Shown: piece by piece, positions 6,156-23,928 of the stretch
How positions within the stretch are numbered: the stretch's first letter is position 1
Layout of the letters: every line of letters starts with the position of its first letter
Virus record (IMG/VR): IMGVR_UViG_3300044627_002450
Span: 1-23,928 of that record
From: a virus
DNA: 23,928 bases
Direction: 5' to 3' (one strand)
Notes under the pieces: generated by a model
What the model was told of the DNA's origin: nothing
What the model saw: only the letters and a program-made list of their open reading frames with translations
Database searches by the model: none
Program-made: the position numbers and the translations under genes

Positions 6156-6190
6156 AAGTTAAAACGGTTTCCTTTGAAAGGTAGTAAATA

Positions 6191-6529: not shown

Positions 6530-6540
6530 GGAGATATAAA

Positions 6541-7604: not shown

Positions 7605-7629
7605 CATTTCACGCTACATACCATACACT
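7601..7629 (+). promoter_or_regulatory. Sigma70-like promoter of the DNA polymerase gene
   Basis: TTGACA (7601-7606), 17-base spacer, TACACT (7624-7629). The -35 box is a perfect consensus and overlaps the dexA stop codon, the same layout as the promoter at 3226. Transcription would begin near 7636 and give a leader that is mostly the hairpin at 7642-7675. Confidence 0.72.
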
Positions 7630-7641
7630 GTAATTTTGTTG

Positions 7642-7675
7642 GAAGGGTGTGCCTATATGGCACACCTGTACCTTC
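7642..7675 (+). promoter_or_regulatory. Leader hairpin of gene 43, candidate translational operator
   Basis: GGTGTGCC (7646-7653) and GGCACACC (7659-7666) pair perfectly around TATAT, and the outer GAAG/CTTC (7642-7645 with 7672-7675) extends the stem with a 3' bulge. The stem ends 4 bases before AAAGAGGAG, the polymerase ribosome site. T4 and RB69 gp43 repress their own translation by binding a hairpin in this place; the loop here differs, so the operator role is inferred from position. Confidence 0.6.
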
Positions 7676-7690
7676 GCAAAGAGGAGAATT

Positions 7691-9007: not shown

Positions 9008-9008
9008 T

Positions 9009-9071
9009 TTTGACCTTCAATGCCTTTAGCGCGCCAGTATTTTATAAATAATAAAGGCACTAAAGGTCAAA
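9009..9071 (+). repeat. 17-bp interrupted inverted repeat around a late promoter, ahead of the HNH gene
   Basis: TTTGACCTT (9009-9017) pairs with AAGGTCAAA (9063-9071) and TGCCTTTA (9021-9028) pairs with TAAAGGCA (9052-9059), with a 3/3 internal loop. The 23-base apical loop contains TATAAATA. The 3' arm reaches into the AAAGG ribosome site of the endonuclease, so early read-through mRNA would hinder its translation while late transcripts lack the 5' arm. This is the logic described for T4 I-TevI. Confidence 0.85.
9043..9050 (+). promoter_or_regulatory. Late promoter TATAAATA of the homing endonuclease
   Basis: Exact match to the T4 late consensus, located in the loop of the inverted repeat at 9009-9071 and 38 bases before the ATG at 9081. 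Confidence 0.8.
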
Positions 9072-9080
9072 GGATTACAA

Positions 9081-9863: not shown

Positions 9864-11172
9864 CCTTAGGACGTTTATAACAACAGGGCAATTCCAAAAA
9901 GAATTGCAATATGGTGTTGACTGTCTTTTGGACAAGAAGTTGAGCAATGAATCTATCACATTGCTAAATTTAGCAAATGTTTCCCTGGCAGCTAATGGTT
10001 CGTTATACAGAAAAGAGAAACAAGGTTTTATCCCCGTTCAAGTAAATCGTATTTTTAGTGAGCGAGCCATCTTCAAGAAGCAGATGTTGACGTTAGAGCA
10101 AGAGTATGACACCACAAAGGATCCTAAATTGGTTCCTGAAATTAGTAGGCTCTATAACCTACAAATGGCTCGCAAGATTCAGATGAATTCGGTTTATGGA
10201 GCACTTGCTAGCCCTTACTTTAGGTACTATGATCTTAGAATGGCAGAGGGCATCACTACATCTGGGCAGTTGGCTATTCGTTGGGTGTCTAAATCCTTGA
10301 ACGAGTTTTTGAACAAGGCATGCAAGACAACGGATGTTGATTATTGTATCTACAATGATACCGATTCAGGTTACTTTACACTGGCAAAGGTAGTTGAACA
10401 GACTCAGGGGTCTAAGTCTACCGAGGACATCGTAAAGTTTGTTGATAAGTTTGCAGGTGAGGTTCTGCAGAAGGTGATCAACAAGTCATACCAAGAGTTG
10501 GCTGACTACATGAATGCATATCAACAGAAGTTGATCATGAAGCGTGAGGTTATCGCGGATGTTGCCATCTTTGTTGCAAAGAAGCGGTATGCCATGAGCG
10601 TTCATAACTCAGAGGGTGTGCAGTATAAGGAACCAAAGATTAAGGTTACTGGTTTGGAACTGGTTCGTTCATCTACTCCCGCTGTTGTTAGAACTACACT
10701 CAAGGCAGGGGTCAAGCAGGTTCTGTATGGTACGCAGTCTAGTGTACAGAAGTTTATTGCGGAGTATCAGGCAAAGTACCTTATCGAACCAATCGAGGCT
10801 ATTGCATTCCCGCGTGGTGTGAACGGACTCAAGCAATACTCGGGTTCCCCAATATATACAAAGGGGTGCCCTATTCATGTCCGCGGTGCGCTGCTGTACA
10901 ATCACTACATCAAGAAACTTGGGCTTGAGGGTAAGTATGAGTTTATCAAAGAAGGATCTAAGATGAAGTTTGTCTATCTTAGACTCCCAAATAAGTTCCA
11001 TGAGAATGTCATTGGCTTCATTGATAAGTTACCTTTAGAATTTGGGTTGACAGACTACGTGGATAAGGATACAATGTTTCAGAAGTCCTTTGTTGAATCT
11101 ATGCAGACAATGCTAGATCCGCTAGGTTGGTCAGCAGAAGAACGTAGTTCGCTAGAAGATTTTTTCAATTGA
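9823..11172 (+). CDS. 43B: Family B DNA polymerase, C-terminal half (43B): palm, fingers, thumb
   Basis: 449 residues from ATG 9823, which has GAGG 8 bases upstream inside the HNH gene; the first ~14 residues use bases that also encode the HNH C-terminus in another frame. It holds ANGSLYRKEKQGFIP, motif B KIQMNSVYG (118-126), motif C YNDTDS (D179, D181), KKRYAM, and a CPIHVRGALLYN thumb segment. The last residues SLEDFFN resemble the clamp-binding tail of T4 gp43 (SLDFLFG), so contact with the gp45 clamp should be kept. It supplies the catalytic aspartate pair that acts with D398 of 43A. UvsX follows after 10 bases. Confidence 0.92.
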   Translation: MKNIKNLSKEELNSLRTFITTGQFQKELQYGVDCLLDKKLSNESITLLNLANVSLAANGSLYRKEKQGFIPVQVNRIFSERAIFKKQMLTLEQEYDTTKDPKLVPEISRLYNLQMARKIQMNSVYGALASPYFRYYDLRMAEGITTSGQLAIRWVSKSLNEFLNKACKTTDVDYCIYNDTDSGYFTLAKVVEQTQGSKSTEDIVKFVDKFAGEVLQKVINKSYQELADYMNAYQQKLIMKREVIADVAIFVAKKRYAMSVHNSEGVQYKEPKIKVTGLELVRSSTPAVVRTTLKAGVKQVLYGTQSSVQKFIAEYQAKYLIEPIEAIAFPRGVNGLKQYSGSPIYTKGCPIHVRGALLYNHYIKKLGLEGKYEFIKEGSKMKFVYLRLPNKFHENVIGFIDKLPLEFGLTDYVDKDTMFQKSFVESMQTMLDPLGWSAEERSSLEDFFN

Positions 11173-11182
11173 AAGGAATACA

Positions 11183-12250
11183 ATGAGTTTGATGGATAAA
11201 CTAAAGAAGAATAGCACAATAAAAGAGACGGCTATTCTATCTGAGTCAAAGTTTTTTGATGAAGGCGACAAGGTAGTTACCTCGGTGCCGGCAATCAATG
11301 TTGCATTGACTGGTGAGTTAGACGGTGGATTTGGTTCGGGCTTGATTGTATTCGCTGGTCCTTCCAAGCACTTCAAGACGAGTTTTACTCTGCTAATGAT
11401 GAAGGCATATCTCGATAAGCACAAAGATGCAATCGCATTGTTTTATGACTCTGAGTTCGGCTCTCCTCAGTCCTACTTTGAATCTTTTGGTATTGATCTG
11501 AAGCGCGTATTGCATACTCCGGTTGCTAACATCGAAGAGCTAAAGTTTGATATCATGAAGCAGTTAAGCGAGATTAAGCGCGGCGACAAGGTATTCATTG
11601 CACTTGATTCCGCGGGTAACATTGCATCCAAGAAGGAAGTTGATGATGCGTTGGAAGGAAAGTCAGTTGCGGATATGAGTCGTGCCAAGCAGCTGAAGTC
11701 TTTGTTTCGTATGGTGACACCCGAGCTAACAATCAAGCAGTTGCCAATGGTTGTAGTCAATCACACGTACAAGGAACAAGGTCTGTATCCCAAGGATATT
11801 GTCTCGGGCGGAACGGGAATCTACTACAGTGCAAACACTATCTTTATCATTGGACGACAACAAGAGAAGGATGGGCAAGAGGTAACTGGTTACAACTTCG
11901 TTATCAACGTCGAGAAGTCCAGATTCTCCCGAGAGAAGTCAAAGATTCCTATCACTGTTATGCACGATGCCGGTATCTCTCGTTGGTCAGGACTACTAGA
12001 CATGGCTCTGGAATCTGGTCATGTAATCAAACCGTCTAACGGTTGGTACTCCAGAGTAGACATGGATACCGGTGAAGTTGAGGATAAGAAGTTCCGTGAA
12101 AAGGACACTAACTCATCTGATTTTTGGTTAAGGGTTTTACAACAACCTACCTTTCGCGGTTGGGTAAAGTCAAAGTATCAAGTAGGCAACACATCGATTC
12201 TTTCCGATGAAGCACTTGATACCGAACTGGATGAGATGTTGGAGGAATAA
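11183..12250 (+). CDS. uvsX: UvsX, RecA-like recombinase
   Basis: 355 residues. Walker A is GPSKHFKTS (59-67), an atypical loop typical of phage UvsX; the Walker B-like segment is VFIALDSAGN, and VVVNHTYKE and SGGTGIYYSAN match the RecA/UvsX core L1/L2 region. The acidic end ELDEMLEE resembles the T4 UvsX tail that contacts partner proteins. It forms filaments on single-stranded DNA and drives strand exchange for recombination-dependent replication. A GAAAGGAAT precedes the ATG. The stop overlaps the next start (TAATG). Confidence 0.96.
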   Translation: MSLMDKLKKNSTIKETAILSESKFFDEGDKVVTSVPAINVALTGELDGGFGSGLIVFAGPSKHFKTSFTLLMMKAYLDKHKDAIALFYDSEFGSPQSYFESFGIDLKRVLHTPVANIEELKFDIMKQLSEIKRGDKVFIALDSAGNIASKKEVDDALEGKSVADMSRAKQLKSLFRMVTPELTIKQLPMVVVNHTYKEQGLYPKDIVSGGTGIYYSANTIFIIGRQQEKDGQEVTGYNFVINVEKSRFSREKSKIPITVMHDAGISRWSGLLDMALESGHVIKPSNGWYSRVDMDTGEVEDKKFREKDTNSSDFWLRVLQQPTFRGWVKSKYQVGNTSILSDEALDTELDEMLEE

Positions 12251-12834
12251 TGAAAAAAGAACTTGATGAATTTCTAGTAAAGAAGTATCCAAAGATCTTT
12301 CGTGATCGTTACGGCGATATTCGAAACACCTGCATGGCTTGGGGGTTTGAAATTGGTGATGGTTGGTTCAACATCATTGATGCAATGTGTGCCAACATTC
12401 AGGGTCACATAAATCACTCTCGCCGTGATCGTGCCAATGCACTAAAATTCAATCGTGCATTGGCTCGAGCGAAGAAAGGCGACATGGCTGGTCTTTATCA
12501 CTATCACAACTACAGTCGTAAAGAAGAATTATCGGAATACACGATAAAGACAGCACATGAAAGTCTTGAAAGAGGCAAGGAACGACAAGTTCGCGCCGCA
12601 TGTCCCCAAGTTATTGCCACTCAGGTAAAGGAAAAATTTGGTACCTTGCGTTTTTACTACGATGGTGGTGATGAATATGTTAGAGCTATCGAAAACATGG
12701 CAGACTCAATGAGTGCCAGGACCTGCGAGGTTTGTGGCAATCCGGGTAAGGTATATCGTGATGGGTGGCATAGTACCCTATGTCCCACACATGCTAAAGA
12801 ACAACACCGCGAAGAGGAACAAGATGACGTTTGA
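12250..12834 (+). CDS. Conserved phage protein with C-terminal zinc-binding CxxC...CxxH motif
   Basis: 194 residues. The N-terminal half contains WGFEIGDGWFNIIDAMC (~31-47); a VIATQVKEKFGTLRFYYDGG block (121-140) is followed by a probable zinc site C159-x2-C162 ... C178-x2-H181. The combination GDGW...QVKEKFGTLRFY...CEVCG...TLCxxH recurs in many uncharacterised phage proteins. GGAGG in the end of uvsX is the ribosome site. Placement between uvsX and gene 41 suggests coupling to replication or recombination, but no reaction can be named. Confidence 0.85.
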   Translation: MKKELDEFLVKKYPKIFRDRYGDIRNTCMAWGFEIGDGWFNIIDAMCANIQGHINHSRRDRANALKFNRALARAKKGDMAGLYHYHNYSRKEELSEYTIKTAHESLERGKERQVRAACPQVIATQVKEKFGTLRFYYDGGDEYVRAIENMADSMSARTCEVCGNPGKVYRDGWHSTLCPTHAKEQHREEEQDDV

Positions 12835-13126
12835 AACAACTATCAAAGAAATCGAAATCAACGGTAGACCCGAATACGAGATTAGATTTATCAACTCCGA
12901 ATTTTCTGATCTATCTTTCAAGTATGGTGAGGTAAAATTCAATGAAGACGACAAGCAAGAAAGCGCGACTCTATCTTTTGAATATGATATAATTGAAGGA
13001 GAGAAGCCCGGTGCTGATAGGCTACCTGCATTTGAAAAGATGCTGGGAGACTATCTTGTACATCTTATCACTGAGCAGATCTCAAAGCGAGAGTTGGTAT
13101 TCAAAGGCGGAACAAGCGAGGAATGA
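12824..13126 (+). CDS. Small acidic protein between uvsX and gene 41, unknown
   Basis: 100 residues from ATG 12824, preceded by GAGG inside the upstream gene; an earlier frame extension (from 12713) overlaps a clear coding gene and lacks support. It starts MTFETTIKEIEINGRPEYEI, is beta-rich and acidic, with a LSFEYDIIEGE segment and a final helix (KMLGDYLVHLITEQISKREL). T4 has gene 40 at this place, and this could be a distant counterpart, but I cannot show it from sequence. The stop overlaps the helicase start (ATGATG). Confidence 0.72.
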   Translation: MTFETTIKEIEINGRPEYEIRFINSEFSDLSFKYGEVKFNEDDKQESATLSFEYDIIEGEKPGADRLPAFEKMLGDYLVHLITEQISKRELVFKGGTSEE

Positions 13127-14517
13127 TGCGTTTAGAAGACAAGATTATTGCTGGTCTAATTTTTGATGAGGATTACACTCGAAAGGTTATGCCTTTTATT
13201 AAGGCAGAATATTTCGAGGCTCGGAATGATCAAGTCATTGTAAAGGAGATTATCAAGTTTTTCTCTGATTACAACAAGCTAGCGTCAAAGGACATTATTG
13301 AGATTGAAGTTCTTAACAGAAAAGACATCTCCCAGAAGGAAGCAAAAGAGATCCCAGAACTGTTGAATGGGCTGGTTTACAACGAAAAGAATACTGATTG
13401 GTTGTTGCATGAAACGGAAAAATTCTTCCAGAAAAGAGCCGTATTCATTGCAATCCTAAATAGCATTCAAATTATCGAGGGTAACGACACTAAACACACA
13501 GAGGACGCAATTCCGTCTTTGTTGCAGGAAGCACTTGCTGTTACATTCGATATGCAAGTCGGGCATGACTACTTGGAAGATTCCGATGCTCGTTATGACT
13601 TCTATAACAAGAAAGAAGAAGGCATCAAGTTTGATCTTGATCTACTGAACCGAATTACCGGAGGAGTGGGGCTACGTAAGTCTACTCTAACAGCAATTGC
13701 CAGTAAAACGGGTGGTGGTAAGAGTCTCATGATGTGTCACATATCCGCAGCCACGTTGATGCAGGGTAAGAACGTTCTTTATATCACGATGGAAATGAGT
13801 GAAGAGCGCATCGCGGAACGTATTGATGCTAATCTATTCAACACACCCATTCAAAATCTAAGGAGTCTTGATAAGGCTACTTTCGATAGCAGAGTACAGC
13901 GCATTCGTGACAAGACGCAAGGGCGATTGGTTGTCAAGGAATATCCTACCGGATCCGCACACGCTGGACATTTCCGGGCATTGATTGAGGAACTGAAGGC
14001 AAAGAAAAACTTCATCCCAGATCTTGTTGTTATCGACTACCTAAATATCTGCTCGTCTCAGCGTATTAGGAATTCGTCCAATGCAAATTCATATACGATT
14101 ATCAAGAGCATCGCCGAGGAGATTCGAGCGATTGCGCAAGAATACAAGTTTCCCATTCTAACTGCCACACAGTTGAACCGAGGTGGTATTGATAGTTCGG
14201 ATGTTGAGATGACTGATACGTCAGAATCAATTGGCTTGGTACATTCCTTAGATTTGTACCTTGCATTGATTCGTACAGAGGAACTGGACCAGCTTAATCA
14301 AGTACTCGTGAAACAGCTAAAGAACAGGTACGGCGATCCAAACATGTACAAGCGGTTCGTTGTTGGGCTTGATGCCAGTAGAATGAAATTCTACGATGTT
14401 GAGCAATCCGCCCAGAAGAACATATCGGACTCGGGTAAGCAAGAAGAAGATGATGCTCCGATGTTCGATAATTCTAAATTTGGTAAGCGATTGAAAACAG
14501 AAGGCTTCATCTTCTAA
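13126..14517 (+). CDS. 41: Replicative DNA helicase, gp41/DnaB-like
   Basis: 463 residues from ATG 13126 (GAGG at better spacing than for the ATG at 13123). The N-terminal domain (~1-150) is helical; the RecA-like ATPase domain has SKTGGGKS Walker A (~193-200), LYITMEMSEERIAERI (~218-233) and LVVIDYLNIC Walker B (~300-309), then TATQLNRGG with the sensor Gln and an arginine-finger region near KNRYGDP. The hexamer unwinds the fork 5' to 3' and partners with primase and gp43. It closes the early replication block; the next gene lies behind a late promoter. Confidence 0.95.
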   Translation: MRLEDKIIAGLIFDEDYTRKVMPFIKAEYFEARNDQVIVKEIIKFFSDYNKLASKDIIEIEVLNRKDISQKEAKEIPELLNGLVYNEKNTDWLLHETEKFFQKRAVFIAILNSIQIIEGNDTKHTEDAIPSLLQEALAVTFDMQVGHDYLEDSDARYDFYNKKEEGIKFDLDLLNRITGGVGLRKSTLTAIASKTGGGKSLMMCHISAATLMQGKNVLYITMEMSEERIAERIDANLFNTPIQNLRSLDKATFDSRVQRIRDKTQGRLVVKEYPTGSAHAGHFRALIEELKAKKNFIPDLVVIDYLNICSSQRIRNSSNANSYTIIKSIAEEIRAIAQEYKFPILTATQLNRGGIDSSDVEMTDTSESIGLVHSLDLYLALIRTEELDQLNQVLVKQLKNRYGDPNMYKRFVVGLDASRMKFYDVEQSAQKNISDSGKQEEDDAPMFDNSKFGKRLKTEGFIF

Positions 14518-14520
14518 ATC

Positions 14521-14561
14521 AAGAATCCCATAAATAGTAGAGATACATTTATGGGATTCTT
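14521..14561 (+). repeat. Perfect 15-bp inverted repeat around a late promoter, at the early/late gene border
   Basis: AAGAATCCCATAAAT (14521-14535) and ATTTATGGGATTCTT (14547-14561) are exact reverse complements with an 11-base loop. The 3' arm contains the GGGA ribosome site of the gene at 14564 and ends 2 bases before its ATG. mRNA read through from gene 41 would hide that site; transcripts starting in the loop would not. There is no T-run, so termination is less likely. Confidence 0.88.
14529..14536 (+). promoter_or_regulatory. Late promoter (CATAAATA) of the virion/payload cluster
   Basis: CATAAATAGTA, 7 of 8 bases of the T4 late consensus, at the edge of the 5' arm and loop of the inverted repeat. 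A start about 5 bases downstream would give a leader of ~20 bases. Confidence 0.75.
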
Positions 14562-14563
14562 CT

Positions 14564-15253
14564 ATGTTCGAACGATTCAAAGATTTTCTTTACGCAAGAG
14601 CTCTTGCTGAAGCAGTTGGTCAAGGCGGTCGTGATTACGAAGTAGTAGTCAACGACAAGCTAAAGAAGCACGGCAAAGCCGATAAAGACGCAAAAACTGC
14701 TGGTTCATCTGCAGATGCTCCCGACGCCAAGTTCCGCCACAACGGCAAAGAGCACAACCTGGAAGTAAAAGCAGACCACAAAGCCATGTTTGGTCAGCTT
14801 GAACTTAAGCATGATGGTGCAAAGTGGGACATTTCACCCAGGTCCAAGACAAAGTATCCACACACCGCAGACGCAATTCTTTCTACTGGCTTTCTCAAGA
14901 AGATAAACCAGAAGTGGGGTAAGCCTACTGGTGATTACGACTCAGATCTTCAACAAGGTAACGTATACCACGACCACCATGATGCCGAGCCAATAAAGGC
15001 ACACTACGGCAAGGATCGCAAAACAGACTATATTCAAATTGGTGGTGGACATGGCTTCTACCACACAGGTAAAGACGCAGCTGGATTGGGTTCACCTGAA
15101 CTAGAAGGTAAGACTCAATTACGTGCTAGAATGAAGTACAGAGGCACAGACAAAGGCGGCAAGAAGAAATACGGTGCTTTGATAGTTATGTCTCTTAAGG
15201 ATGCAGATAAATCGCATCATGATCTAGACGCAGAACCAGCGGAGAAGAAATAA
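14564..15253 (+). CDS. Candidate PD-(D/E)XK-type nuclease with capsid-targeting-like N-terminus
   Basis: 229 residues, basic. The start MFERFKDFLYARALAEAVGQ carries an L-A-E|A site at 14-16, like the prohead protease sites of T4 internal proteins. Next comes a nuclease-like pattern: YEVVVNDKLKKHG (~25-37), P53-D54 and E67-V-K69 within HNLEVKAD, followed by GQLELK. This helix-PD-ExK arrangement fits the Holliday-resolvase/restriction endonuclease fold. The rest is Gly, His and Lys rich (GGGHGFYHTGKD) and ends KSHHDLDAEPAEKK. First gene behind the late promoter at 14529. The nuclease call is motif-based and unproven. Confidence 0.75.
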   Translation: MFERFKDFLYARALAEAVGQGGRDYEVVVNDKLKKHGKADKDAKTAGSSADAPDAKFRHNGKEHNLEVKADHKAMFGQLELKHDGAKWDISPRSKTKYPHTADAILSTGFLKKINQKWGKPTGDYDSDLQQGNVYHDHHDAEPIKAHYGKDRKTDYIQIGGGHGFYHTGKDAAGLGSPELEGKTQLRARMKYRGTDKGGKKKYGALIVMSLKDADKSHHDLDAEPAEKK

Positions 15254-15987
15254 TGGCGGGCGAAGCAGCAGAACGACAAGAGAACGGCATAGTAAAAGCC
15301 GTTTCTGACGCAGTAAAGAAAAATAAAGGAAATCCTATCACTGTTGTTGCGGGTAAAACAAAAATTTCTAGTGTCACCTCGGCAAGAAAAGCTACACATC
15401 TAAGACAACAGGGTGGGTCCGAACCTTATATTGATGTTCTTTTAGGTATACATGGCGAAGATGAAATAGGACTTTCTTGTAAAGGCAAGTCAGCACCATC
15501 TCTTGCGGGTGGTGGATTGTCAGGATTAGAATTGGCAGTTCCTGGTATTGCAAAGAAGTTCATGACATCTGCATTTAACCACCTATCAAAGAAGTTGAAA
15601 TTACAACCTGGCGATAAAGTACCTGACGTATACGGAAAAATTGGCAGTGCCGACAAAGTAAAAATTGTCGTTGGAAACAAGAAGATGGGTGGTCCTATAG
15701 ACTACATGTTCGTGGGTACAATGGATGTTAGAGCAACATACGACCAAGCAAAGAACGAACTAACGTTTGGCGATACAGAGATAACCCCTGCTAAAAAATA
15801 TGCCGAGGAGCATGAACTTTACTTTAGACTAAGAGCCAGAAGAGAGGATCAACGATTTGATCCTACATCTAAAGACAAAGACGGCTCTCCTAAAATTTAC
15901 GGCAAGAGCCCAAGCAGAGGAGACTCGGCAGGTAGAATTGTTGTACAAGACAAAACACCTTCTAATGCGGTTATTGTAAACATATGA
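15253..15987 (+). CDS. Unknown protein, partner of the preceding gene
   Basis: 244 residues. Starts 1 base inside the preceding stop (TAATG), so the two are translationally coupled. The middle has EPYIDVLLGIHGEDEIGLSCKGKSAPSLAGGG in residues ~57-88 (IDV...LSCKG is reminiscent of a PD-(D/E)XK core but with Ser where Glu is expected). The C-terminal part has ELYFRLRARRED and a Lys/Asp/Gly-rich basic end, suited to binding nucleic acid. No capsid-targeting-like N-terminus is visible (MAGEAAERQENG). It could be an inactive nuclease relative or complex partner; function unknown. Confidence 0.75.
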   Translation: MAGEAAERQENGIVKAVSDAVKKNKGNPITVVAGKTKISSVTSARKATHLRQQGGSEPYIDVLLGIHGEDEIGLSCKGKSAPSLAGGGLSGLELAVPGIAKKFMTSAFNHLSKKLKLQPGDKVPDVYGKIGSADKVKIVVGNKKMGGPIDYMFVGTMDVRATYDQAKNELTFGDTEITPAKKYAEEHELYFRLRARREDQRFDPTSKDKDGSPKIYGKSPSRGDSAGRIVVQDKTPSNAVIVNI

Positions 15988-17231
15988 AAACTTTCAAATC
16001 ATTCCTAGTAGAGGCAGAAGCAGTTGTTGGCGTAAAAGCAGGTCACATGACTCACCTCGAAGATCTAGTTTTTGACCTTGGCGTAGAGGGTACCCGTAAA
16101 GCAATCAACTTCATGCGTGATGTTAGAGACATGCTTTCCCAGGGTACTGGTCAAAAGAAGGCAGTTGCAACAGTAAAGTTCGATGGTGCGCCAGCATTGA
16201 TCGCGGGTATCAATCCAGAGAACGGAAAGTTCTTCGTGGCAAAGAAGGGCATCTTCAACAAGAACCCTAAGTTGTATTACTCACATGCCGACATTGATGC
16301 AGACACACAAGGCGATCTTGCAAACAAGCTAAAAGTTGCATTCACAGAGTGCAAGAAACTTGGTCTAACATCTGGTGTATACCAGGGAGACATCATGTTC
16401 ACAAGCGATAGTCTCAAGCTTGAAAAGATAGACGGTGTTGACTACGTTACGTTTCACCCAAACACGATCGTCTATGCTGTACAAAAAGAATCAGCGCTTG
16501 GTAGACAGATTAGAAGAGCCAATATTGGCATTGTGTGGCACACCACATTTGAAGGTGATACAATCGCTACTCTAAAGCCAACCTTTGGCAAACCAATTAT
16601 AGACAAGTTCAAGAAAAACCAGAGTAGTTGGATGGAAGACGCAACATTCAAGGATGTTACTGGTGTTGCCACGTTTACTGATGCCGAGAGAAAAGAGTTT
16701 GATTCTAAGTTGTCTCAGATTGGCACAATGTTCCAGAGAATGCCCTCAACTGTTGTAAATGCAATACACAAGGATGAGACACTTCTTACTCTAGTGCACA
16801 CATACAACAACAGCAAGATTAGAGCTGGTGAGCGTGTTACTGATATTCCGAAACACGTTGACGGGTTGTATGACTTCATCTTCGAGAGATACGAAAAAGA
16901 AAAGAAGGGTTTGAAGACACCTGCTGCAAAGACACGCAAGGACGAGGAACGTAGCAAGGTTCTAAACTTCTTTGCTCTCCACCCCAAGACTGAAATCATT
17001 AAGGTATTCGAACTTGCATCGGCTATCGCATCAGCAAAACAAATGCTAGTTGACAAGATGAACAAAGCCAGCAATGTTGGTACATTCCTAAAAACAAAAG
17101 ATGGATTTAGAGTAACTGGTGCCGAGGGGTTTGTGGCTATTTCGGAACAAGGCGCAGTAAAGTTAGTTGATCGCCTCGAGTTTTCATTGGCGAATTTTAG
17201 TCCTCTAATAGTCAAAGGGTGGGAAAGATGA
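15984..17231 (+). CDS. KxDG nucleotidyltransferase/ligase-like protein with capsid-targeting-like N-terminus
   Basis: 415 residues. MKTFKSFLVEA closely mimics the T4 internal-protein leader MKTYQEFIAEA, with a probable cut after LVE (8-10). The body has VKFDGAPALIAG with K65 as possible nucleotide-accepting lysine, FFVAKKGIFNK (~83-93), GVYQGDIMF (~131-139), and NIGIVWHTTF (~180-189); the order resembles motifs I, Ia, III and IV of DNA/RNA ligases and capping enzymes. This pattern is shared by an uncharacterised protein family in marine T4-like phages (I recall it as DUF6267, not checked). The C-terminal ~150 residues are helical. ATGA overlap with the preceding gene. Confidence 0.8.
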   Translation: MKTFKSFLVEAEAVVGVKAGHMTHLEDLVFDLGVEGTRKAINFMRDVRDMLSQGTGQKKAVATVKFDGAPALIAGINPENGKFFVAKKGIFNKNPKLYYSHADIDADTQGDLANKLKVAFTECKKLGLTSGVYQGDIMFTSDSLKLEKIDGVDYVTFHPNTIVYAVQKESALGRQIRRANIGIVWHTTFEGDTIATLKPTFGKPIIDKFKKNQSSWMEDATFKDVTGVATFTDAERKEFDSKLSQIGTMFQRMPSTVVNAIHKDETLLTLVHTYNNSKIRAGERVTDIPKHVDGLYDFIFERYEKEKKGLKTPAAKTRKDEERSKVLNFFALHPKTEIIKVFELASAIASAKQMLVDKMNKASNVGTFLKTKDGFRVTGAEGFVAISEQGAVKLVDRLEFSLANFSPLIVKGWER

Positions 17232-17560
17232 ATGATATCGTAAGTTGGCTCAAGACACATTGGTTCATATTCACTGCATTGGTAACATGTGGTGTTGCTT
17301 GGGGTCAGACAGTAACAAAGGTTGCGGAACTTGAAAACAAGCTGGCAAAAACAGAGACTATTGCAGCAAATCAATCTAGACTAGACGAGCGCACACAGAT
17401 GATGCAAGAATCTATGAAAGAGCAGAATAAGATGCTCCTTGAGATATTGACTACACAGCGCGCGTGGGCACAGAAAAATAATGTTGTGGTTGAAAATCCT
17501 TCTCCAGTGCAAACCCCAAGAGCAGTAGTTAGACCTGCACAAACACAAAACAATAAATAG
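17228..17560 (+). CDS. Small membrane-anchored coiled-coil protein
   Basis: 110 residues from ATG 17228 (GGGAAAG upstream, ATGA overlap with the previous stop). One hydrophobic segment at ~8-27 (KTHWFIFTALVTCGVAWGQ) is followed by a heptad-like Gln/Glu/Lys-rich region (~30-80) and a Pro/Gln-rich tail. The layout resembles an i-spanin or a minor membrane/virion protein, but there is no partner gene or signature to decide. A late promoter overlaps its stop codon. Confidence 0.75.
   Translation: MNDIVSWLKTHWFIFTALVTCGVAWGQTVTKVAELENKLAKTETIAANQSRLDERTQMMQESMKEQNKMLLEILTTQRAWAQKNNVVVENPSPVQTPRAVVRPAQTQNNK
17552..17559 (+). promoter_or_regulatory. Candidate late promoter (AATAAATA)
   Basis: AATAAATAGTA, 7 of 8 bases of the T4 consensus, overlapping the upstream TAG stop and 26 bases before the ATG at 17585. 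The same AATAAATAGTA string precedes hsp20. Confidence 0.6.
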
Positions 17561-17584
17561 TAAATACATTCTAATGGGTAACAT

Positions 17585-19249
17585 ATGATCACATACAAAG
17601 AGCTATTAGAGGCTCGAAAGAGCACTGTGGTGATGGCTTTTGGTAGGCTAAATCCTCCCACGATTGGTCATGAGCTGCTTGTCAAGGCAGTCGCTGCCCT
17701 GGCAAAGAAAAACAACGCTGATCATATCATCTATGTGTCTCGCACACAAGATGCAAAGAAAAACCCCCTTACAGTAGATCAAAAAGTTGCGTATGCGCGC
17801 CACTCCTTCAAGGGAATGAACATTGTGGGAGCCAGTGATAAGGTAAGAACTTTTATCGAGGCAGCAAAAGACCTCACAGGCAAGTACGACAATCTAATCA
17901 TGATCGCGGGATCGGATAGAATCCTCGAGTACAAGCAACTACTAGATCGCTATAACGGAAAAGATTTTAGATTCAAGTCCATTCATGTAGTATCTGCTGG
18001 AGAAAGAGATCCAGACGAAGAAGGTGCTGCTGGAATGTCCGCATCAAAGATGCGCGCCGCTGCTGCATCTGATGACTTTGCGAAGTTCAAGCAGGGCGTA
18101 CCATCAGCGATGACTGACGCAATGGCTCGTAGAATGTTTGATGACGTAAGAGCCGGAATGAAACTAAACGAAGAAGTTGATGAAGTTAGAGAAGAATACG
18201 TCAACGAACGTGTGTTCAATGTAGGCGATATAGTTACACATGAAGAACAAGAGAAGACAATTATCCATCGTGGTACCAACTATGTTGTACTAGAAGACAA
18301 CAAGCGTGTTTGGCTAACTGACATCAAACAAACCACAAAGGTCAACGAGGCTATCATGGTAAAACAGCAAGATAAGATCAAAGCAGCCCGTATCATTGGA
18401 ATGTCTTTGGGTTATGCGGATGCAGAAACTAAGAACGATCCTACCATGATTGTAAACATGGCACTTCGTGGTATCAGAAACAAAGCGCTAAATCCAGAGA
18501 CCAGGGCAATCATTGGAAGAATGCTTGATCTAGCTAAACAAATGGAAATCTCCTATGACGATAGACTACTTGGTTTGAAAGAAGCCAAGGATGAAGAAGA
18601 GCAAGAAGAAGTAATTGAAAAGGTACCCTTGGATATTGCAGATGTTGATTCACATGTATTGATGCACGGCAAGGGTCCCCTAAGTCCACGTGCTGGTGAT
18701 AACGAATACAAGCGTATGCGAAAGATCCATCTAAGAGCACATGAGTCTACTGAACCCGAAGGTGAGGAAGACGACGAAGATTTTGACGAAGACGAACTAG
18801 TAAACAGCTTGTCAGACGACGACATCATCGAACACGGATACGATGACGATGAGATTCACGTAGTTGACGATGAGACTGGTGAGCCAATCAAGGAAGAATT
18901 CAATCTAGATTCCATAAATGAAGTTCTAAGTCGCATTGAAAGAATGAGAGCAAAGGTAAGACTAGCAAAGACTTCCGCTAAGAGAGAGCGTGCTGCTGCA
19001 ATTGCATTAAAGCGTCGTTCTACCACACCAGTTCTTGTTAAGAGAGCCAGAAGACTAGCAGTAAAGACGCTAGAGATGAGGCTAGCCAAGAAGCCATTGG
19101 CTAAGCTAAGCATTGGTGAGAAGGAAAGAATCGAAGCAAGAATTGCAAGAATGGGTCCCGTTATTACTAGAATTGCTGTAAAGATGCTACCCCGGGTTCG
19201 TAAGGTAGAGTCAGAGAGACTAGCACACCACTCAACACAGAAAGCATAA
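17585..19249 (+). CDS. TxGH nucleotidyltransferase (cytidylyltransferase-like) with basic C-terminal virion domain
   Basis: 554 residues. MITYKELLEA has an L-L-E|A site at 7-9, capsid-targeting-like. The N-terminal domain (~12-180) is a Rossmann nucleotidyltransferase: FGRLNPPTIGH (T26-x-G-H29) and SASKMR (152-157), matching the HxGH and SSTxxR motifs of cytidylyl/adenylyltransferases; DPDEEGA lies just before. The middle (~185-420) includes acidic stretches (EGEEDDEDFDEDE). The last ~100 residues are very Arg/Lys/Ala rich (RRLAVKTLEMRLAKKP, LPRVRKVESERL), a segment seen in several T4-like phage proteins and suited to DNA contact. Several L/I-x-E sites (e.g. INE before the basic part) could allow processing. 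Confidence 0.85.
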   Translation: MITYKELLEARKSTVVMAFGRLNPPTIGHELLVKAVAALAKKNNADHIIYVSRTQDAKKNPLTVDQKVAYARHSFKGMNIVGASDKVRTFIEAAKDLTGKYDNLIMIAGSDRILEYKQLLDRYNGKDFRFKSIHVVSAGERDPDEEGAAGMSASKMRAAAASDDFAKFKQGVPSAMTDAMARRMFDDVRAGMKLNEEVDEVREEYVNERVFNVGDIVTHEEQEKTIIHRGTNYVVLEDNKRVWLTDIKQTTKVNEAIMVKQQDKIKAARIIGMSLGYADAETKNDPTMIVNMALRGIRNKALNPETRAIIGRMLDLAKQMEISYDDRLLGLKEAKDEEEQEEVIEKVPLDIADVDSHVLMHGKGPLSPRAGDNEYKRMRKIHLRAHESTEPEGEEDDEDFDEDELVNSLSDDDIIEHGYDDDEIHVVDDETGEPIKEEFNLDSINEVLSRIERMRAKVRLAKTSAKRERAAAIALKRRSTTPVLVKRARRLAVKTLEMRLAKKPLAKLSIGEKERIEARIARMGPVITRIAVKMLPRVRKVESERLAHHSTQKA

Positions 19250-19251
19250 TA

Positions 19252-20580
19252 ATGGCTCAGTTTAGAAAAGACATTCACCAATACCTCAACAATGGGAGAA
19301 CCATTTTTGAGGTAATGATGTTAGCTGATCAGTATGGCAATCTGGTTGGTCCAGCGAACCCTTCAGGTATGGCAGTAGATGCTTTCGGGCGTGCTAGAAC
19401 TAGCTCCCCACTAACACTATTTGATTCCAATCATCGCTATTCAGACAACGGGCTTTGGGCAACTTCAACTGCCACTGGTGGCGCCGCTGTGTTTAACGCA
19501 AATCAAGGACTTGTTGATCTAAATGTAACAGGTGCAGCGGGATCAGAAGTAATTCGTGAAACGTTTAAGGTATTTGCTTATCAACCAGGTAAATCACTGC
19601 AGATTCTTAATACATTTTGTTTCAACGAAGCAAAAACAAACCTAAGACAAAGAGTAGGTTACTTTGGAGCAAACAACGGTTTCTATGTTGAGCTCAACGA
19701 CTCTACTCTAAGTTTCGTCAAGAGAAGTTCAGTATCCGGTTCTTTAGTTGAAACAAAGATCAGTCAACTTGGTTCCGTATATGGAGCAGGAGACACAGGT
19801 TGGAATCTAGATAAACTAGATGGTACTGGTCCTTCTGGTTACACAATTGACAAAACAAAGTCACACATCTTTTGGATGGACTTGGAATGGCTTGGTGTTG
19901 GTACAGTAAGAATGGGTGTGGTTATAAATGGTCAGTTTATCCACTGCCATTCCTTCCACCATGCAAACCTCATCACTGCCACTTACATTACAACCGCTTC
20001 TTTACCAGTTAGGTATGAGATTAGAAATACTGGAACTACTTCTGGACCTAGCACACTAAAACAGATTTGCTCAACTGTCATCTCCGAGGGTGGTTATGAG
20101 CTTAGAGGCTCTCAACTAGCTGTAAACGTTCCTATTACGGCACCAAGATCTCTTGCTGTTGCTGGTACATACTATCCAGTAATTGCGTTAGAGCTAAAAT
20201 CCAGCAAGTTGGATGCAATTGTAATACCAACAAACATATCTCTAATGGGTCAAGGAAACGGTATCTTTTACCATTGGCAGTTGACTCAGAGCGCAACAGT
20301 TACTGGTGGAAGCTGGATTGATTCGGGAACTAATTCAGCAGTAAACTATAACCTCACCGGTACTGGTATATCAGGAGGTCGTGTAGTTGCATCAGGGTTT
20401 ACTAGCTCTTCAAATCAAAGCCATCAGACTGTCACGGTAAACAAAGAAAACTTGTTTAGATTCCAATTAGAACGAAACGGTTTAACAAACACTCCCCTTT
20501 CTTTGTCTCTATCTGTAACTGCCGCAACAGCAAATCAAACGATATTTGGTTCGATGGATTGGGAAGAGGTAACAAGATGA
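19252..20580 (+). CDS. Virion structural protein, beta-rich
   Basis: 442 residues, no capsid-targeting-like start (MAQFRKDIHQYLNN). Composition is Gly, Ser, Thr and Asn rich with alternating hydrophobics, as in fibres or capsid decorations. The core has W-N-x-D-K-L-D-G-T-G-P-S-G (WNLDKLDGTGPSG), IFWMDLEWLGVG and FHHANLITATYITTASLPVR, a combination I associate with structural proteins of environmental T4-like phages. No receptor-binding or enzymatic signature is visible. Lies 2 bases after the nucleotidyltransferase gene, and its stop overlaps the next start (ATGA). Confidence 0.8.
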   Translation: MAQFRKDIHQYLNNGRTIFEVMMLADQYGNLVGPANPSGMAVDAFGRARTSSPLTLFDSNHRYSDNGLWATSTATGGAAVFNANQGLVDLNVTGAAGSEVIRETFKVFAYQPGKSLQILNTFCFNEAKTNLRQRVGYFGANNGFYVELNDSTLSFVKRSSVSGSLVETKISQLGSVYGAGDTGWNLDKLDGTGPSGYTIDKTKSHIFWMDLEWLGVGTVRMGVVINGQFIHCHSFHHANLITATYITTASLPVRYEIRNTGTTSGPSTLKQICSTVISEGGYELRGSQLAVNVPITAPRSLAVAGTYYPVIALELKSSKLDAIVIPTNISLMGQGNGIFYHWQLTQSATVTGGSWIDSGTNSAVNYNLTGTGISGGRVVASGFTSSSNQSHQTVTVNKENLFRFQLERNGLTNTPLSLSLSVTAATANQTIFGSMDWEEVTR

Positions 20581-22886
20581 AAACACTAAAACAACTATTA
20601 GAAGATATCCAAACAGGATACGCCCCCAAGGAAATTTCGTACAAGGGCTATACAACAAAGAATCTACATCATGTCCCTGATGCAACAAAGGCATTCCAGG
20701 CAACCATAACAAGAGTAGAAAAAGGTACTCTTGAAGACAACGGAGAAGTTCTTGATTCCCTGAAGAACACAGATACATATATGAAGTTGAATGACATGCA
20801 TCTGGAACAAGAAAAGGACCTGGATCCCAGTGAACTACAACAGTGGCTAAAATCTCATGAAGCCGCAAAACAAGCTCTAACCAAGATAGGCGAATTCGAG
20901 CATCATTACGATTACTGGAATTCACACAACTCAGAACTTCAATATCTGAAAGCGAACCAAAATATGCCACAAGAAACAGAATCAGTAGAAGAATCAATTG
21001 ACTTCAAGAAAGAAGCTGCAAAGCATATGAAGGATCTTCATAGCAAAGATTCAACACCAGCCAATAAAGAGTACGCTCAGAAGATGCTACGAAGAGCATT
21101 AGAGGCGTCAAAGATGAAAGACCCAGTTGCAGCCAAGAAACATTATACGGGTGTTTCTGAAGAAGTAGAACTAGACGAAATGTGGAGAGTCGAAAAGTCT
21201 GAAGCAACAGGGCGTCACCATGTTGTAAAGGGATATAACGAGAAGCGCAATGTTTGGAAGAACAAGATTGGCGCTGTAGACTTCAATTCTGAAGCAGATG
21301 CAAAGAAAAAAGCAGAAGAACTAAACTCAGTAAAAGAAGAAGCGAACACAAAAACGGCTAATCCATATCATGCCGGATATTCTGCTCATGGTCAAAAGAA
21401 GACTCGCCAGCACAATCCATATAAGGAAGGTTCAGAAGGAGCCGCTATGTGGGCAAAGGGCTGGGAACATGCTTCTGATGGTAAGCCAAAGGCAAAGTTT
21501 ACAAACGAGCAAGTAGAATCTATTGAAGAAGCTATCAATGACATTGATAGAGTAGCAAAAGGAAAACCAACATCAGACGATGTTCGTAGAAAATACTACT
21601 CTAAAATGGTTACATCAATTCTAGGCGGAAAAGATAGCGTAAAGCAACAAACAAAATCTTTAGATAGATACAACAAAGTAAAATCAATTACTGACCCAGA
21701 ACAAAAAACGGAACAAGTAGAAGAGAATTTTGGTGCTGATTTCCTAGCAATGGCAAAAGAAAGGAATCCAAACGCACGTCTAGTTACTCCAGAGCAGAAG
21801 AAAAAAGAAGCCGAAGAGTTAGCAAAAAAGAGAGCCGAACTAAAACCAGCACATGCTACTCCTACAGGCAATCCACGCCCACTAGGTGGTTACGACCCAA
21901 AGAGTGGTCGTTCTTACAGTGAAAGCACCGAGCCTAAAAAGGAGTTGACAGTCAAAACCAGTGATGACACGCATGATGTAGTCAATTCCGCTGGCAAGGT
22001 TGTAAAACAATTTCACAAAACAACAAAGGGATTGGAATACGCACACCAATTTGTGAAACAAAATAAAGGCGTCAAAGAACTAGACGAAGCAACATGGGCT
22101 GGACACTCTGACACTGTAAAAAATCCAAACTTCAATGATGAACTGAGTATCCGCAGGGTCAGCCCTCCCGGCAAAAGACTAAAGTCTGGTAAATTAGACT
22201 ACAACGAAAGATCAAGCCAAGAACGCCTTAAGGCTCTTATAAAATTCAAGAAAGCGAAAGGCGGACTAACTGGACCCATGGGTAAGTTGCCAGAAGAAGT
22301 CGAAACCATCGAAGAAGGTCCTTATTCTTCTGGTCAACTAAAGCCTTCTAAGGGCATGGAAGATCAGGAAAAGAAGGCAGTTACATCTAGAACAAGCACC
22401 ATCAGGGGTCGTGATAGCAAGGGTGTTTACACCGCCACAATGAAAGACGGTAAGGAAGTTTCAAAGGTTTATGAAGAAAACATAAACGAATTGAGCAAGA
22501 CAACTCTTGGAAGCTACATAAAGAAGCGCAGTCACGATGTTGCAACAATGGGTGCAGTAACCCGCAAATATGCTATGGACTCTGATGCGAAAAAGAAAGA
22601 ACACGGCGCATATACAAATGCTGCTCGTGAGTTGGACCAAAAGTCAAACAGAGCCTTCATGAAGGGTTGGAAGCATCGTGAAAATATCGGTAAGGCTGTA
22701 GATAGACTTACTAAGGAAGAAGTCGAGCTAGACGAAAAGACCCTAACTACAGCCGAGCTAAAGAAGCGCGAAGAGATTGCCAAAGCCATGGAAAGAAAGA
22801 ATCCAAACATGGACAAGTCACGTAAGATGGCAATCGCAACGGCAGTAGCAAAGAGAGTTGCAGAGCAGTATGATGACGCTGAGTGA
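20577..22886 (+). CDS. Modular internal virion protein with repeated (L/I)xE linkers
   Basis: 769 residues from ATG 20577 (GAGG upstream, ATGA overlap). Leader MKTLKQLLEDIQ has an LLE site. The chain is Lys/Glu-rich and divided by linkers of the form EEVE-(L/I/S)-(D/E)-E: LDE 199-201, IEE 316-318, VEE 381-383, LDE 502-504, IEE 578-580, INE 636-638, LDE 718-720. T4 prohead protease gp21 cuts after L/I-x-E, so this looks like a polyprotein. Modules include an RMF-like piece (NPYHAGYSAHG ... NPYKEGSEG ... WAKGWEHA, ~262-300), a TLGSYIKKR ... RAFMKGW helical module and a final LKKREEIAKAMERKN module. Confidence 0.85.
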   Translation: MKTLKQLLEDIQTGYAPKEISYKGYTTKNLHHVPDATKAFQATITRVEKGTLEDNGEVLDSLKNTDTYMKLNDMHLEQEKDLDPSELQQWLKSHEAAKQALTKIGEFEHHYDYWNSHNSELQYLKANQNMPQETESVEESIDFKKEAAKHMKDLHSKDSTPANKEYAQKMLRRALEASKMKDPVAAKKHYTGVSEEVELDEMWRVEKSEATGRHHVVKGYNEKRNVWKNKIGAVDFNSEADAKKKAEELNSVKEEANTKTANPYHAGYSAHGQKKTRQHNPYKEGSEGAAMWAKGWEHASDGKPKAKFTNEQVESIEEAINDIDRVAKGKPTSDDVRRKYYSKMVTSILGGKDSVKQQTKSLDRYNKVKSITDPEQKTEQVEENFGADFLAMAKERNPNARLVTPEQKKKEAEELAKKRAELKPAHATPTGNPRPLGGYDPKSGRSYSESTEPKKELTVKTSDDTHDVVNSAGKVVKQFHKTTKGLEYAHQFVKQNKGVKELDEATWAGHSDTVKNPNFNDELSIRRVSPPGKRLKSGKLDYNERSSQERLKALIKFKKAKGGLTGPMGKLPEEVETIEEGPYSSGQLKPSKGMEDQEKKAVTSRTSTIRGRDSKGVYTATMKDGKEVSKVYEENINELSKTTLGSYIKKRSHDVATMGAVTRKYAMDSDAKKKEHGAYTNAARELDQKSNRAFMKGWKHRENIGKAVDRLTKEEVELDEKTLTTAELKKREEIAKAMERKNPNMDKSRKMAIATAVAKRVAEQYDDAE

Positions 22887-23751
22887 TTATATTCAGGATG
22901 TTATGATTGCCGAGGGGCTTTATGACCCCTCGATCTTCAAGGCAATATTCCTTGCGGGTGGACCGGGTAGTGGTAAGTCCTTCATGGCTAAAAAGACTGC
23001 CCTACAAGCACTTGGTTTTGTAGTCATAAATTCGGATCAGCCTTTTGAAGCTCTAATGCACAAGTTAGAATTAGATTTTAAGATGCCCGACTCGGAAAAA
23101 GAACAACGAGATGCTGCCAGGGAAGTCGCCAAAGCAACCGCAGATAAAAAGCAGATGCTTGCAATCCATGGTAGACTGGGTCTTGTCATTGACGGTACCG
23201 GCAGGGACCTGGAAAAAATTATGAAGATGCGGGGGCATCTTGCAGTAAAGGGTTACGACTCGGCACTCGTGTTTGTTAACACAGACCTTGAAACCGCTCT
23301 TGCTCGTAATGCTAGAAGAGAACGGTCAGTACCCGAAAAAATTGCATCTGATCTATGGAAAGACGTCCAGAAAAATCTTGGTACATTCCAACGAGCTTTT
23401 GGCACCAACTTTCATATTATCGATAACTCAGAAGGTTCTGATTACGACGCTCAAACAACGCAAGTTTACAAAAAGTTGCTTGCATGGTCAAAAGAACCAC
23501 CAAAGAATGGGGTTGCTATTAGATGGATTCAGGATCAGAAACAACGCAGAAACATAACCGAAAACGTAACCGAGGCATCATATGCCGGTAACATCGGTGT
23601 TATGGAACTGGTAAAATTTCATAATGTTGCATCGGATGCCGAAAAGAAACACCTCAAGCATCTTATCTCAACCAAGAAGACAAAAGATGCCTGGAAACTA
23701 GTCCAAGATAAACTTGGCGTAAAGTTGGTAGGGAAAAGTTTTGGTAACTAA
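22870..23751 (+). CDS. P-loop kinase (zeta-toxin/polynucleotide-kinase type) with capsid-targeting-like N-terminus
   Basis: 293 residues from ATG 22870 (22873 also possible), overlapping the previous gene by 17 bases. MTLSDYIQDVMIAEG has an I-A-E|G site at 13-15. Walker A is GGPGSGKS (30-37), followed by VINSDQPFEAL, LVIDGTGRD and a lid-like ARNARRERSVPEKI segment, as in zeta-toxin and phage polynucleotide kinases; the substrate could be an RNA/DNA end, a nucleotide sugar or another small molecule. After a second cut-like site (VTEA) comes a C-terminal module, YAGNIGVMELVKFHNVA ... AWKLVQDKLGVKL, found in other phage virion proteins. Confidence 0.87.
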   Translation: MMTLSDYIQDVMIAEGLYDPSIFKAIFLAGGPGSGKSFMAKKTALQALGFVVINSDQPFEALMHKLELDFKMPDSEKEQRDAAREVAKATADKKQMLAIHGRLGLVIDGTGRDLEKIMKMRGHLAVKGYDSALVFVNTDLETALARNARRERSVPEKIASDLWKDVQKNLGTFQRAFGTNFHIIDNSEGSDYDAQTTQVYKKLLAWSKEPPKNGVAIRWIQDQKQRRNITENVTEASYAGNIGVMELVKFHNVASDAEKKHLKHLISTKKTKDAWKLVQDKLGVKLVGKSFGN

Positions 23752-23754
23752 ATA
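23748..23754 (+). promoter_or_regulatory. Weak candidate late promoter (CTAAATA)
   Basis: CTAAATAAG overlaps the kinase stop codon, 26 bases before the next ATG. It departs from ATAAATA at one base, but its position over a stop codon matches the motifs at 1769 and 17552. Confidence 0.35.
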
Positions 23755-23779
23755 AGAATAGTCTTTACAAAGGATTACT

Positions 23780-23928
23780 ATGAAATCTTTCAAATCACTA
23801 ATGGAATCACTAGCCGAAGCATGGCCTGGTACTCCCGAATACAAGAAGAAGTTTGGCTCACCATCAGCTGATGGTCCAGACGGTTCACGCCACAAGATTG
23901 ATCGCACTCCTGGTATTACACGAGCAAC
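23780..23928 (+). CDS. Start of another late gene with capsid-targeting-like N-terminus, cut by window edge
   Basis: ATG 23780 follows AAAGGATT. The visible 49 residues start MKSFKSLMESLAEAWPGTPE, with an L-A-E|A site at 11-13, then KKKFGSPSADGPDG and a His/Arg/Lys-containing stretch. The frame is open to the window end. The leader matches that of the other late-cluster proteins; the body is too short to identify. Confidence 0.7.
   Translation, partial: MKSFKSLMESLAEAWPGTPEYKKKFGSPSADGPDGSRHKIDRTPGITRA

Follow-up and report, generated by a model that had tools for sequence, protein, structure and literature searches.

The closest described counterparts of the locus analysed here are the internal proteins IPI, IPII and IPIII of phage T4, with which it shares an N-terminal leader of 9-16 residues with key residues 4, 7, 8 and 10, an L/I-x-E motif at the cut site (predicted here), a gp21 protease in the genome and the occurrence of the same leader on unrelated bodies. 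Mutagenesis of T4 IPIII has assigned residues 4 and 7 to targeting and residues 8 and 10 to processing (PMC9026906). T4 Alt, an ADP-ribosyltransferase, is also comparable as a packaged enzyme with a gp21-cut N-terminus that is delivered to the host. Virions of the cyanophages S-CREM2, S-SZBM1, S-SM1 and S-SCSM1 have been described with cytidylyltransferase/NMNAT, kinase and SAM hydrolase proteins; the cytidylyltransferase is homologous to that of the present phage and, in both S-CREM2 and S-SZBM1, has the same leader; these reports linked virion detection neither to the leader nor to gp21. Diverse propeptide-packaged ejection proteins cut by a prohead protease are likewise known from phiKZ-like phages, SPN3US and P1.

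The stretch of DNA under study (the window, 23,928 nucleotides) represents part of the genome of a T4-like myovirus, an aquatic relative of T4 that is known from metagenome alone. From 14564 onward, six of nine genes begin with a leader ending in L/I-x-E, as the original prediction had claimed for these late genes, and all six were confirmed at the starts it had proposed; the genes at 15253, 17219 and 19252 carry none. The leaders are read here, with a probability of about 0.8, as T4-type capsid-targeting sequences that are cut by gp21 and load an enzyme set into the head. The leaders and single bodies of the cluster are given below, where the arrow marks the candidate junction.

14564..14611, + strand: leader MFERFKDFLYARALAE↓A, atypical; relatives with a different N-terminus retain an L/V-x-E junction
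14612..15253, + strand: body of the 14564 protein (phrog_26930), by PHROG match
15253..15987, + strand: gene without leader and without assigned function, seen in close relatives only
15984..16013, + strand: leader MKTFKSFLVE↓A, by N-terminus inspection and homologue comparison
16014..17231, + strand: DUF6267 body (PF19782, 9e-102), ligase-type nucleotidyltransferase by motifs
17219..17560, + strand: gene without leader, GTG start
17585..17611, + strand: leader MITYKELLE↓A, by N-terminus inspection
17612..19249, + strand: cytidylyltransferase / NMNAT-like body (phrog_3041, 7.5e-63), homologues in cyanophage virions
19252..20580, + strand: virion structural protein without leader (phrog_1645)
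20577..20603, + strand: leader MKTLKQLLE↓D, by N-terminus inspection
22870..22914, + strand: leader MMTLSDYIQDVMIAE↓G, with E↓G conserved at the junction of 13/13 kinase sequences
22915..23751, + strand: P-loop kinase, Zeta-toxin / polynucleotide-kinase-like (PF06414 4e-13, phrog_12810 3.5e-46)
23780..23818, + strand: leader MKSFKSLMESLAE↓A, by N-terminus, full gene from a near-identical contig

The occurrence of the leaders was analysed with a simple rule ([LIVMF]xE and then A, G, S, D or R, within about 16 residues), matched by 6/9 cluster genes against 2/21 upstream genes (Fisher P=0.003), and with a stricter rule of helix-spaced hydrophobics, matched by 4/9 against 0/21, both rules having been devised after viewing the cluster sequences. 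Shuffling of residues 2-19 gave a mean of 0.9 leaders expected against six observed (P=5e-5). Independent tests were provided by relatives fetched by body alone and by a scrambled-pattern control. A chance N-terminal likeness in small lysine-rich phage proteins could be argued from the loose L/I-x-E rule, which matches 34/167 non-virion S-CREM2 proteins; the shuffles, the scrambled-pattern control and the body-selected homologues make this reading extremely improbable, and it is refuted for the whole cluster and possible for 14564 alone. The 14564 gene is the weakest member of the cluster, as homologues 79-81% identical to it carry another N-terminal extension, while retaining the L/V-x-E junction. 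The leaders of 15984, 17585, 20577 and 23780 have a hydrophobic residue at both position 4 and position 7, as do the DUF6267 homologues; the 14564 and 22870 leaders are out of register for these positions. The 23780 leader contains an additional, earlier LME↓S. When N-termini were scored by BLOSUM for their similarity to the T4 leader, the ranking was poor (Mann-Whitney P=0.70), and the position rule was used instead. The automatic gene caller yielded few matches to the leader rule per genome outside this cluster, which indicates that start-site choice limits genome-wide leader counts.

The conservation of the leader was followed in 63 unique DUF6267 sequences retrieved by body only. The leader sequences vary among these homologues, and P1 is E in 58/63 and P3 is I or L in 56/63; within residues 2-10 the least variable positions are 4, 7, 8 and 10, which coincide with the residues identified by T4 IPIII mutagenesis. 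Codon choice at the conserved residues is variable, which places the selection at the protein level. Some DUF6267 genes are without a leader and their bodies begin at the junction. In loci not chosen by leader, it is present in 20/28 for DUF6267, 15/39 for cytidylyltransferase and 1/31 for replication genes; cytidylyltransferase counts that included leader-chosen loci were dropped as biased and recounted without them. A scan of IMG/VR with the leader pattern gave at least 120 stretches, and among the matches listed 124/125 were open and 114/125 stood at gene starts; the leader was found on at least 39 unrelated bodies by body clusters. The scrambled control pattern gave 46 stretches in the full IMG/VR collection, 12/46 of them open. 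The leader is thus conserved apart from the body, with the pattern kept, many bodies served, and presence or absence on the same body. The objection that homologues might lack the leaders was mostly contradicted, with exceptions such as the leaderless DUF6267 of S-SZBM1; in the HTVC008M cytidylyltransferase the Glu is lost (MKTLKELLRKK). A leader at the start codon that recurs on many genes might instead be an N-terminal expression element acting on translation or mRNA structure and not an address, but the conserved residues are encoded by different synonymous codons, the residues between them vary freely and fused proteins contain the same junction internally, far from any start, which renders this explanation scarcely credible.

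A search for a gp21-type protease, proposed as a check, did not find one within the 23.9-kb window; a contig 97-98% identical to the window encodes gp21 protease (PF03420) together with gp22 and gp23, placing the protease in the same phage species, and its gp23 carries the site QQLTE↓DAP. A gp21 match exceeded the cut-off in 11/40 leader contigs against 5/38 control contigs, a modest difference. A short amphipathic helix rich in Lys is able to bind membranes, and the proteome lists do not split head from tail; on these grounds the leader might direct the proteins elsewhere in the particle or cell (tail, baseplate, membrane) without being a gp21 substrate. This alternative is very unlikely, as each position of the pattern fits its counterpart among the capsid-targeting residues of T4 and in the gp21 site, the P1 Glu is nearly invariant while its neighbours vary, and all complete relatives tested encode gp21.

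Published virion proteomes of tagged homologues also support capsid targeting. In S-CREM2, 5/6 leader-bearing proteins (SAM hydrolase, kinase, cytidylyltransferase and two unknowns) are among the virion proteins (Fisher P=2.4e-4, with a rule devised after viewing the S-CREM2 N-termini); 23/28 of its non-structural or unknown virion proteins are without a leader, and the bare L/I-x-E rule gave no separation of virion from non-virion proteins (P=0.23). The tagged cytidylyltransferase of S-SZBM1 is in the virion, and the untagged DUF6267 adjoining it was not detected in the published virion proteome. These data contradict, for the homologues, the possibility that the proteins are absent from virions. 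CsCl-purified virions can hold contaminants according to the authors of both cyanophage papers (PMC10665884, PMC9602691), who raise this for the same enzymes, so that the detections might reflect abundant infected-cell proteins and the leader might have another role. Contamination is an unlikely explanation, given that so many of the leader-bearing S-CREM2 proteins are in the virion list and that the cytidylyltransferase was detected independently in the virions of five cyanophages (S-SM1, S-SZBM1, S-CREM2, S-SCSM1 and S-CBWM1). The single-stranded DNA-binding protein, the RecA-like protein and ribonucleotide reductase are usually abundant in infected cells, and the S-CREM2 virion list is without all three. 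Packaging is well supported by the homologues, and for the virions of this phage it would follow by homology.

The bodies behind the leaders are not T4 internal proteins, as had been predicted: Pfam and PHROG searches gave DUF6267, cytidylyltransferase and Zeta/PNK kinase, and no small basic IPI-III-like body was found by them among the cluster proteins. Capsid-targeting-like leaders on such enzymes are supported by gp21, leader conservation and the homologue virion data. Among the functional labels proposed earlier, nucleotidyltransferase and kinase stood through profile matches, and the 17585 protein contains an HxGH-type motif (GRLNPPTIGHE); the ligase-like label comes from motifs of DUF6267 (KxDGAPA, EGFV, KLVDR), in which K65, D67, G68, E381, G382 and K393 are invariant over 12 sequences. 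A fold search with the predicted DUF6267 model (pLDDT 76, leader region <50) gave no fold match, and PDB sequence searches gave nothing convincing. The 229-aa protein of 14564 has an N-terminal E as well as APDAKF and LEVK, which on visual inspection alone look like those of a PD-(D/E)XK nuclease; Pfam and PHROG searches matched no nuclease profile and the AlphaFold model was poor (pLDDT 44), leaving nuclease-like as an unproven resemblance.

The 20577 and 23780 genes encode multi-module proteins with the following features.

20604..22886, + strand: multi-module protein of the 20577 gene, modules joined by EEVELDE-like linkers fitting L/I-x-E
21177..21179, + strand: candidate internal gp21 site VELDE↓M (Glu201), by sequence motif
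21354..21473, + strand: RMF-like module (PF04957, E 9.7e-5, under the curated cut-off), by Pfam
21528..21530, + strand: candidate internal gp21 site VESIEE↓A (Glu318), by sequence motif
22086..22088, + strand: candidate internal gp21 site VKELDE↓A (Glu504), by sequence motif
22314..22316, + strand: candidate internal gp21 site VETIEE↓G (Glu580), by sequence motif
22734..22736, + strand: candidate internal gp21 site VELDE↓K (Glu720), by sequence motif
23819..23928, + strand: second multi-module protein, start only, with modules and linkers common to the 20577 protein

The window ends within the 23780 gene, whose full 396 aa were obtained from a near-identical contig that agrees with the window at 98.8% in the overlap. 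The EEVELDE-type linker motif is enriched across phages, and its association with leaders is weak (24/105 against 97/1201, start choices being unequal). The kinase E↓G junction is identical in leaders and internal fusions (13/13). The internal L/I-x-E junctions suggest that some of the cargo is polyprotein.

Three late-promoter-like elements precede cluster genes.

14530..14536, + strand: ATAAATA, late-promoter-like, T4-type late core, 28 nt upstream of the 14564 start
17553..17566, + strand: ATAAATAGTAAATA, late-promoter-like, 19-32 nt upstream of the 17585 start
23748..23754, + strand: CTAAATA, late-promoter-like, 26 nt upstream of the 23780 start

The cores TATAAATA and TAAATA are not enriched in number over expectation in the window; TAAATA occurs in 12 copies, all on the + strand, against 13.7 expected, and the promoter reading is suggestive only for this reason.

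In the proposed mechanism, a tagged enzyme would bind the prohead core late in infection via its short N-terminal helix, whose hydrophobic residues lie around positions 4 and 7. Cleavage by gp21 after L/I-x-E, near residues 8-16, would then free the enzyme, which would stay inside the head along with the packaged DNA and enter the next host together with the genome. The cargo would comprise the DUF6267 protein as a putative ligase-type nucleotidyltransferase, the cytidylyltransferase/NMNAT-like enzyme, the Zeta/PNK-like kinase, two multi-module proteins and the 14564 protein. Probably gp21 also cleaves the multi-module proteins at their internal junctions, so that one tag could carry several small domains. 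As tagged relatives are found inside purified particles, these viruses probably carry ready-made enzymes into the cell with their DNA; leader cleavage, location inside the head, injection and function in the host are what we infer, and a literature search found no published test of injection of leader-bearing proteins.

A wider reading, held tentatively at somewhat short of even odds, is that aquatic T4-like phages use one portable capsid address for a large, fast-changing repertoire of injected effectors, much of it as gp21-site polyproteins. This repertoire would include nucleotidyltransferases, kinases, peptidoglycan enzymes, acetyltransferases, SAM hydrolase and perhaps even Cas9, and polyprotein modules separated by repeated gp21 sites (the EEVELDE-type linkers) may be freed inside the head. 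The leader provides a simple sequence rule to predict the proteins that ocean and lake T4-like phages bring in at time zero, and it offers a mechanism for enzymes repeatedly found in cyanophage virions and dismissed as possible contaminants. Since most tagged bodies are without known function, candidates for host takeover and counter-defence can be picked out by the tag.

Compared with the T4 internal proteins, the bodies here are enzymes and multi-module proteins and not small basic proteins, the cluster lies directly downstream of the gp41 helicase, and internal L/I-x-E junctions are repeated. The enzymes differ from Alt, which has its own propeptides at both ends. To the cyanophage set this phage, itself recovered as metagenomic sequence, adds a tagged DUF6267 and a Zeta/PNK-like kinase. 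The phiKZ-like phages, SPN3US and P1 differ in belonging to other capsid lineages with diverged proteases, and their cargo is not homologous as far as known. On the reading favoured here, the locus is the T4 internal-protein strategy in another form, with enzymes and multi-module proteins as cargo.

A leader, that is a short N-terminal tag ending in L/I-x-E, was present in six of the nine genes of the leader cluster (named here by their starts, from window 14564 onward), as the original prediction had claimed, and its frequency was above chance against both the 21 upstream genes and shuffles. The leader rules were composed after the sequences had been read, therefore tests independent of the window were sought. 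Of the body labels proposed, the nucleotidyltransferase (17585, a cytidylyltransferase with a strong profile match) and the kinase (22870, with a Zeta toxin/PNK-like P-loop) held; the DUF6267 protein (15984) may be a ligase-type nucleotidyltransferase, judged by invariant motifs only, and the 14564 body appears nuclease-like by eye only. The 20577 protein has an RMF-like stretch scoring below the Pfam cut-off.

The gp43 DNA polymerase is split across window 7691-11172, with an apparent homing-endonuclease ORF in the gap, and the ORFs before the cluster are:
7691-9007 and 9820-11172, T4-type DNA polymerase (gp43), two ORFs
9081-9863, apparent homing-endonuclease ORF between the polymerase halves, preceded by TATAAATA
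11183, UvsX
13126, DnaB/gp41 helicase, after which the leader cluster comes next

The relatives of the window are all T4-like (Stenotrophomonas phage DLP6, Melnitz, HTVC008M and cyanophages). Melnitz and HTVC008M have DUF6267, cytidylyltransferase and neighbours downstream of gp41, and in DLP6 the DUF6267/cytidylyltransferase pair is located further on from gp41. At window 3613-6155 a metallophosphoesterase-like ORF is flanked by two RNA-ligase-like ORFs (EGFVFK motifs), which looks like an RNA repair group. All TAAATA sites (12/12) are on the coding (+) strand, and in three cluster units (14564, 17585 and 23780) one lies about 19-32 nt before the start.

DUF6267 homologues were retrieved with the body alone as query. 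The strict leader rule fitted 39 of 66 unique N-termini, the remainder being mostly close variants such as MNLKTHIAE/A (slash, candidate gp21 cut; P1 and P3 are counted back from it). Alignment on the junction (n=63 unique) revealed Glu at P1 in 58, Ile/Leu at P3 in 56, Phe/Leu at residue 4 in 57 and Tyr/Phe/His at residue 7 in 54, while residues 2, 3, 5, 6 and 9 were almost unconstrained. The four least variable of residues 2-10 are 4, 7, 8 and 10, exactly the positions assigned by T4 amber-suppressor work to targeting (4, 7) and processing (8, 10) (PMC9026906); codon usage at these four varies. Leaderless DUF6267 genes, that of S-SZBM1 among them, start at the junction with M(A/G)KN(T/L)HLEHLED. 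In this comparison, one that had been proposed as a check, leader and body evolve separately. At loci chosen without regard to leader, the strict rule fitted 20/28 DUF6267 (P=2e-8) and 15/39 cytidylyltransferase genes (P=3e-4) versus 1/31 replication genes.

A degenerate DNA pattern for MKxFxxF[LIVMF]xEA was scanned across IMG/VR, the control being the same codons reordered. The leader pattern gave at least 120 stretches and the control 46 across the whole collection. Among the matches listed, 124/125 opened a frame of at least 60 aa (or running off the contig) versus 12/46 for control, and 114/125 versus 26/46 were preceded by an in-frame stop no more than 20 codons away, as is typical of gene starts. 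The tagged bodies in these listed matches formed at least 39 unrelated clusters, among them cytidylyltransferase (at least 54 members); others were DUF6267, lytic transglycosylase, glucosaminidase, GNAT acetyltransferase, deoxyribonucleotidase, DUF192, WYL_2 and many without assigned function. The leaders are real, portable and under selection at the protein level. A second N-terminal pattern, MTxYxxTMxEA, opens other multi-module proteins (contigs L005:17131-18519, L010:9429-10547, L212 and L275) and is possibly another head-targeting leader. Many cytidylyltransferases (contigs L099, L139 and many more) carry behind the leader a module, AKRLGLxxDGHGxWYDxxGxxxAKTxxGKL, that is roughly 30 residues long and is also seen in the S-CREM2 virion kinase (gp14).

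The gp21 protease (PF03420) was not found within the 23.9-kb window. The proposed search elsewhere located it, with gp22 and gp23, on the 37.5-kb contig IMGVR_UViG_3300044631_000507, which is 97-98% identical to window 1-16934. On that contig QQLTE/DAPANSS occurs in the N-terminal region of gp23, KVLTE/AKD close to the N-terminus of gp21 itself, and MITFIEYLLE/K opens an ORF slightly upstream of gp21. The T4 controls read MKTYQEFIAE/A (IPII/IPIII) and FGSFLTE/AEIGG (gp23).

The virions of S-CREM2 contain 52 listed proteins (Table 3 of PMC10665884). A register that requires hydrophobic residues at 4, 7 and 8 together with Glu at 10, settled after the N-termini were inspected but using the positions of the T4 work, matched 6/219 S-CREM2 N-termini against 0.23 expected from internal positions. 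Five of the six are virion proteins off the structural list (P=2.4e-4):
SAM hydrolase, MKDFDSFLEE
gp13, MKDLHSFLTE
kinase, MKRFDAFLTE
gp136, MQTFSMFFSE
cytidylyltransferase, MKNFSSFLTE

The virion Cas9 of S-CREM2 (gp12, L024:7704-10313) bears the capsid-targeting-like LRFASFMAE/A at residues 17-26, after a short extra N-terminus. Simple contamination is argued against by the absence of the S-CREM2 single-stranded DNA-binding protein, RecA-like protein and ribonucleotide reductase from the 52-protein list. S-SZBM1 virions contain a cytidylyltransferase (PMC9146016) with the leader MRFRQFIIE/A, and the adjoining untagged DUF6267 was not detected in them (PMC9146016); the cytidylyltransferase is also in S-SM1 virions (PMC3037559). 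In the openly searchable papers, no statement linking virion detections to a leader was found.

The 20577 and 23780 proteins have common modules, and the acidic linkers that connect these modules fit L/I-x-E. Linkers in the 20577 protein:
EEVELDE/M
EQVESIEE/A
GVKELDE/A
EEVETIEE/G
EEVELDE/K

EEVELDEA occurred in at least 120 IMG/VR stretches versus 14 for a rearranged control motif; these linkers sit in long phage proteins built from several modules (window 20577-22886; viral contigs L212-L331). The kinase junction E/G is identical behind the leader (MKTFAELQE/GVYDP) and behind fused domains (NEDLITE/GVYDP), with Glu at P1 in 13/13; P3 could be read in 12 cases and was Leu/Ile in 10. The 14564 body in relatives is fused behind longer extensions with the junction LVAE/A or LNE/K. 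Tags and linkers thus use the same junction type, and we infer that processing would occur there, which would make the multi-module proteins candidate polyproteins.

The claim of capsid-targeting-like leaders is supported by the matched T4 key residues, the gp21 in a near-identical contig and the tagged homologues in relatives' virions. The leaders agree with T4 capsid-targeting sequences at the key positions and co-occur with gp21, and they mark proteins previously found in virions of relatives. Packaging through the leader tag is given a probability of about 0.8, and delivery of the tagged proteins into the host is considered fairly likely. The leader tagging seen here is a variation on the known T4 internal-protein strategy.
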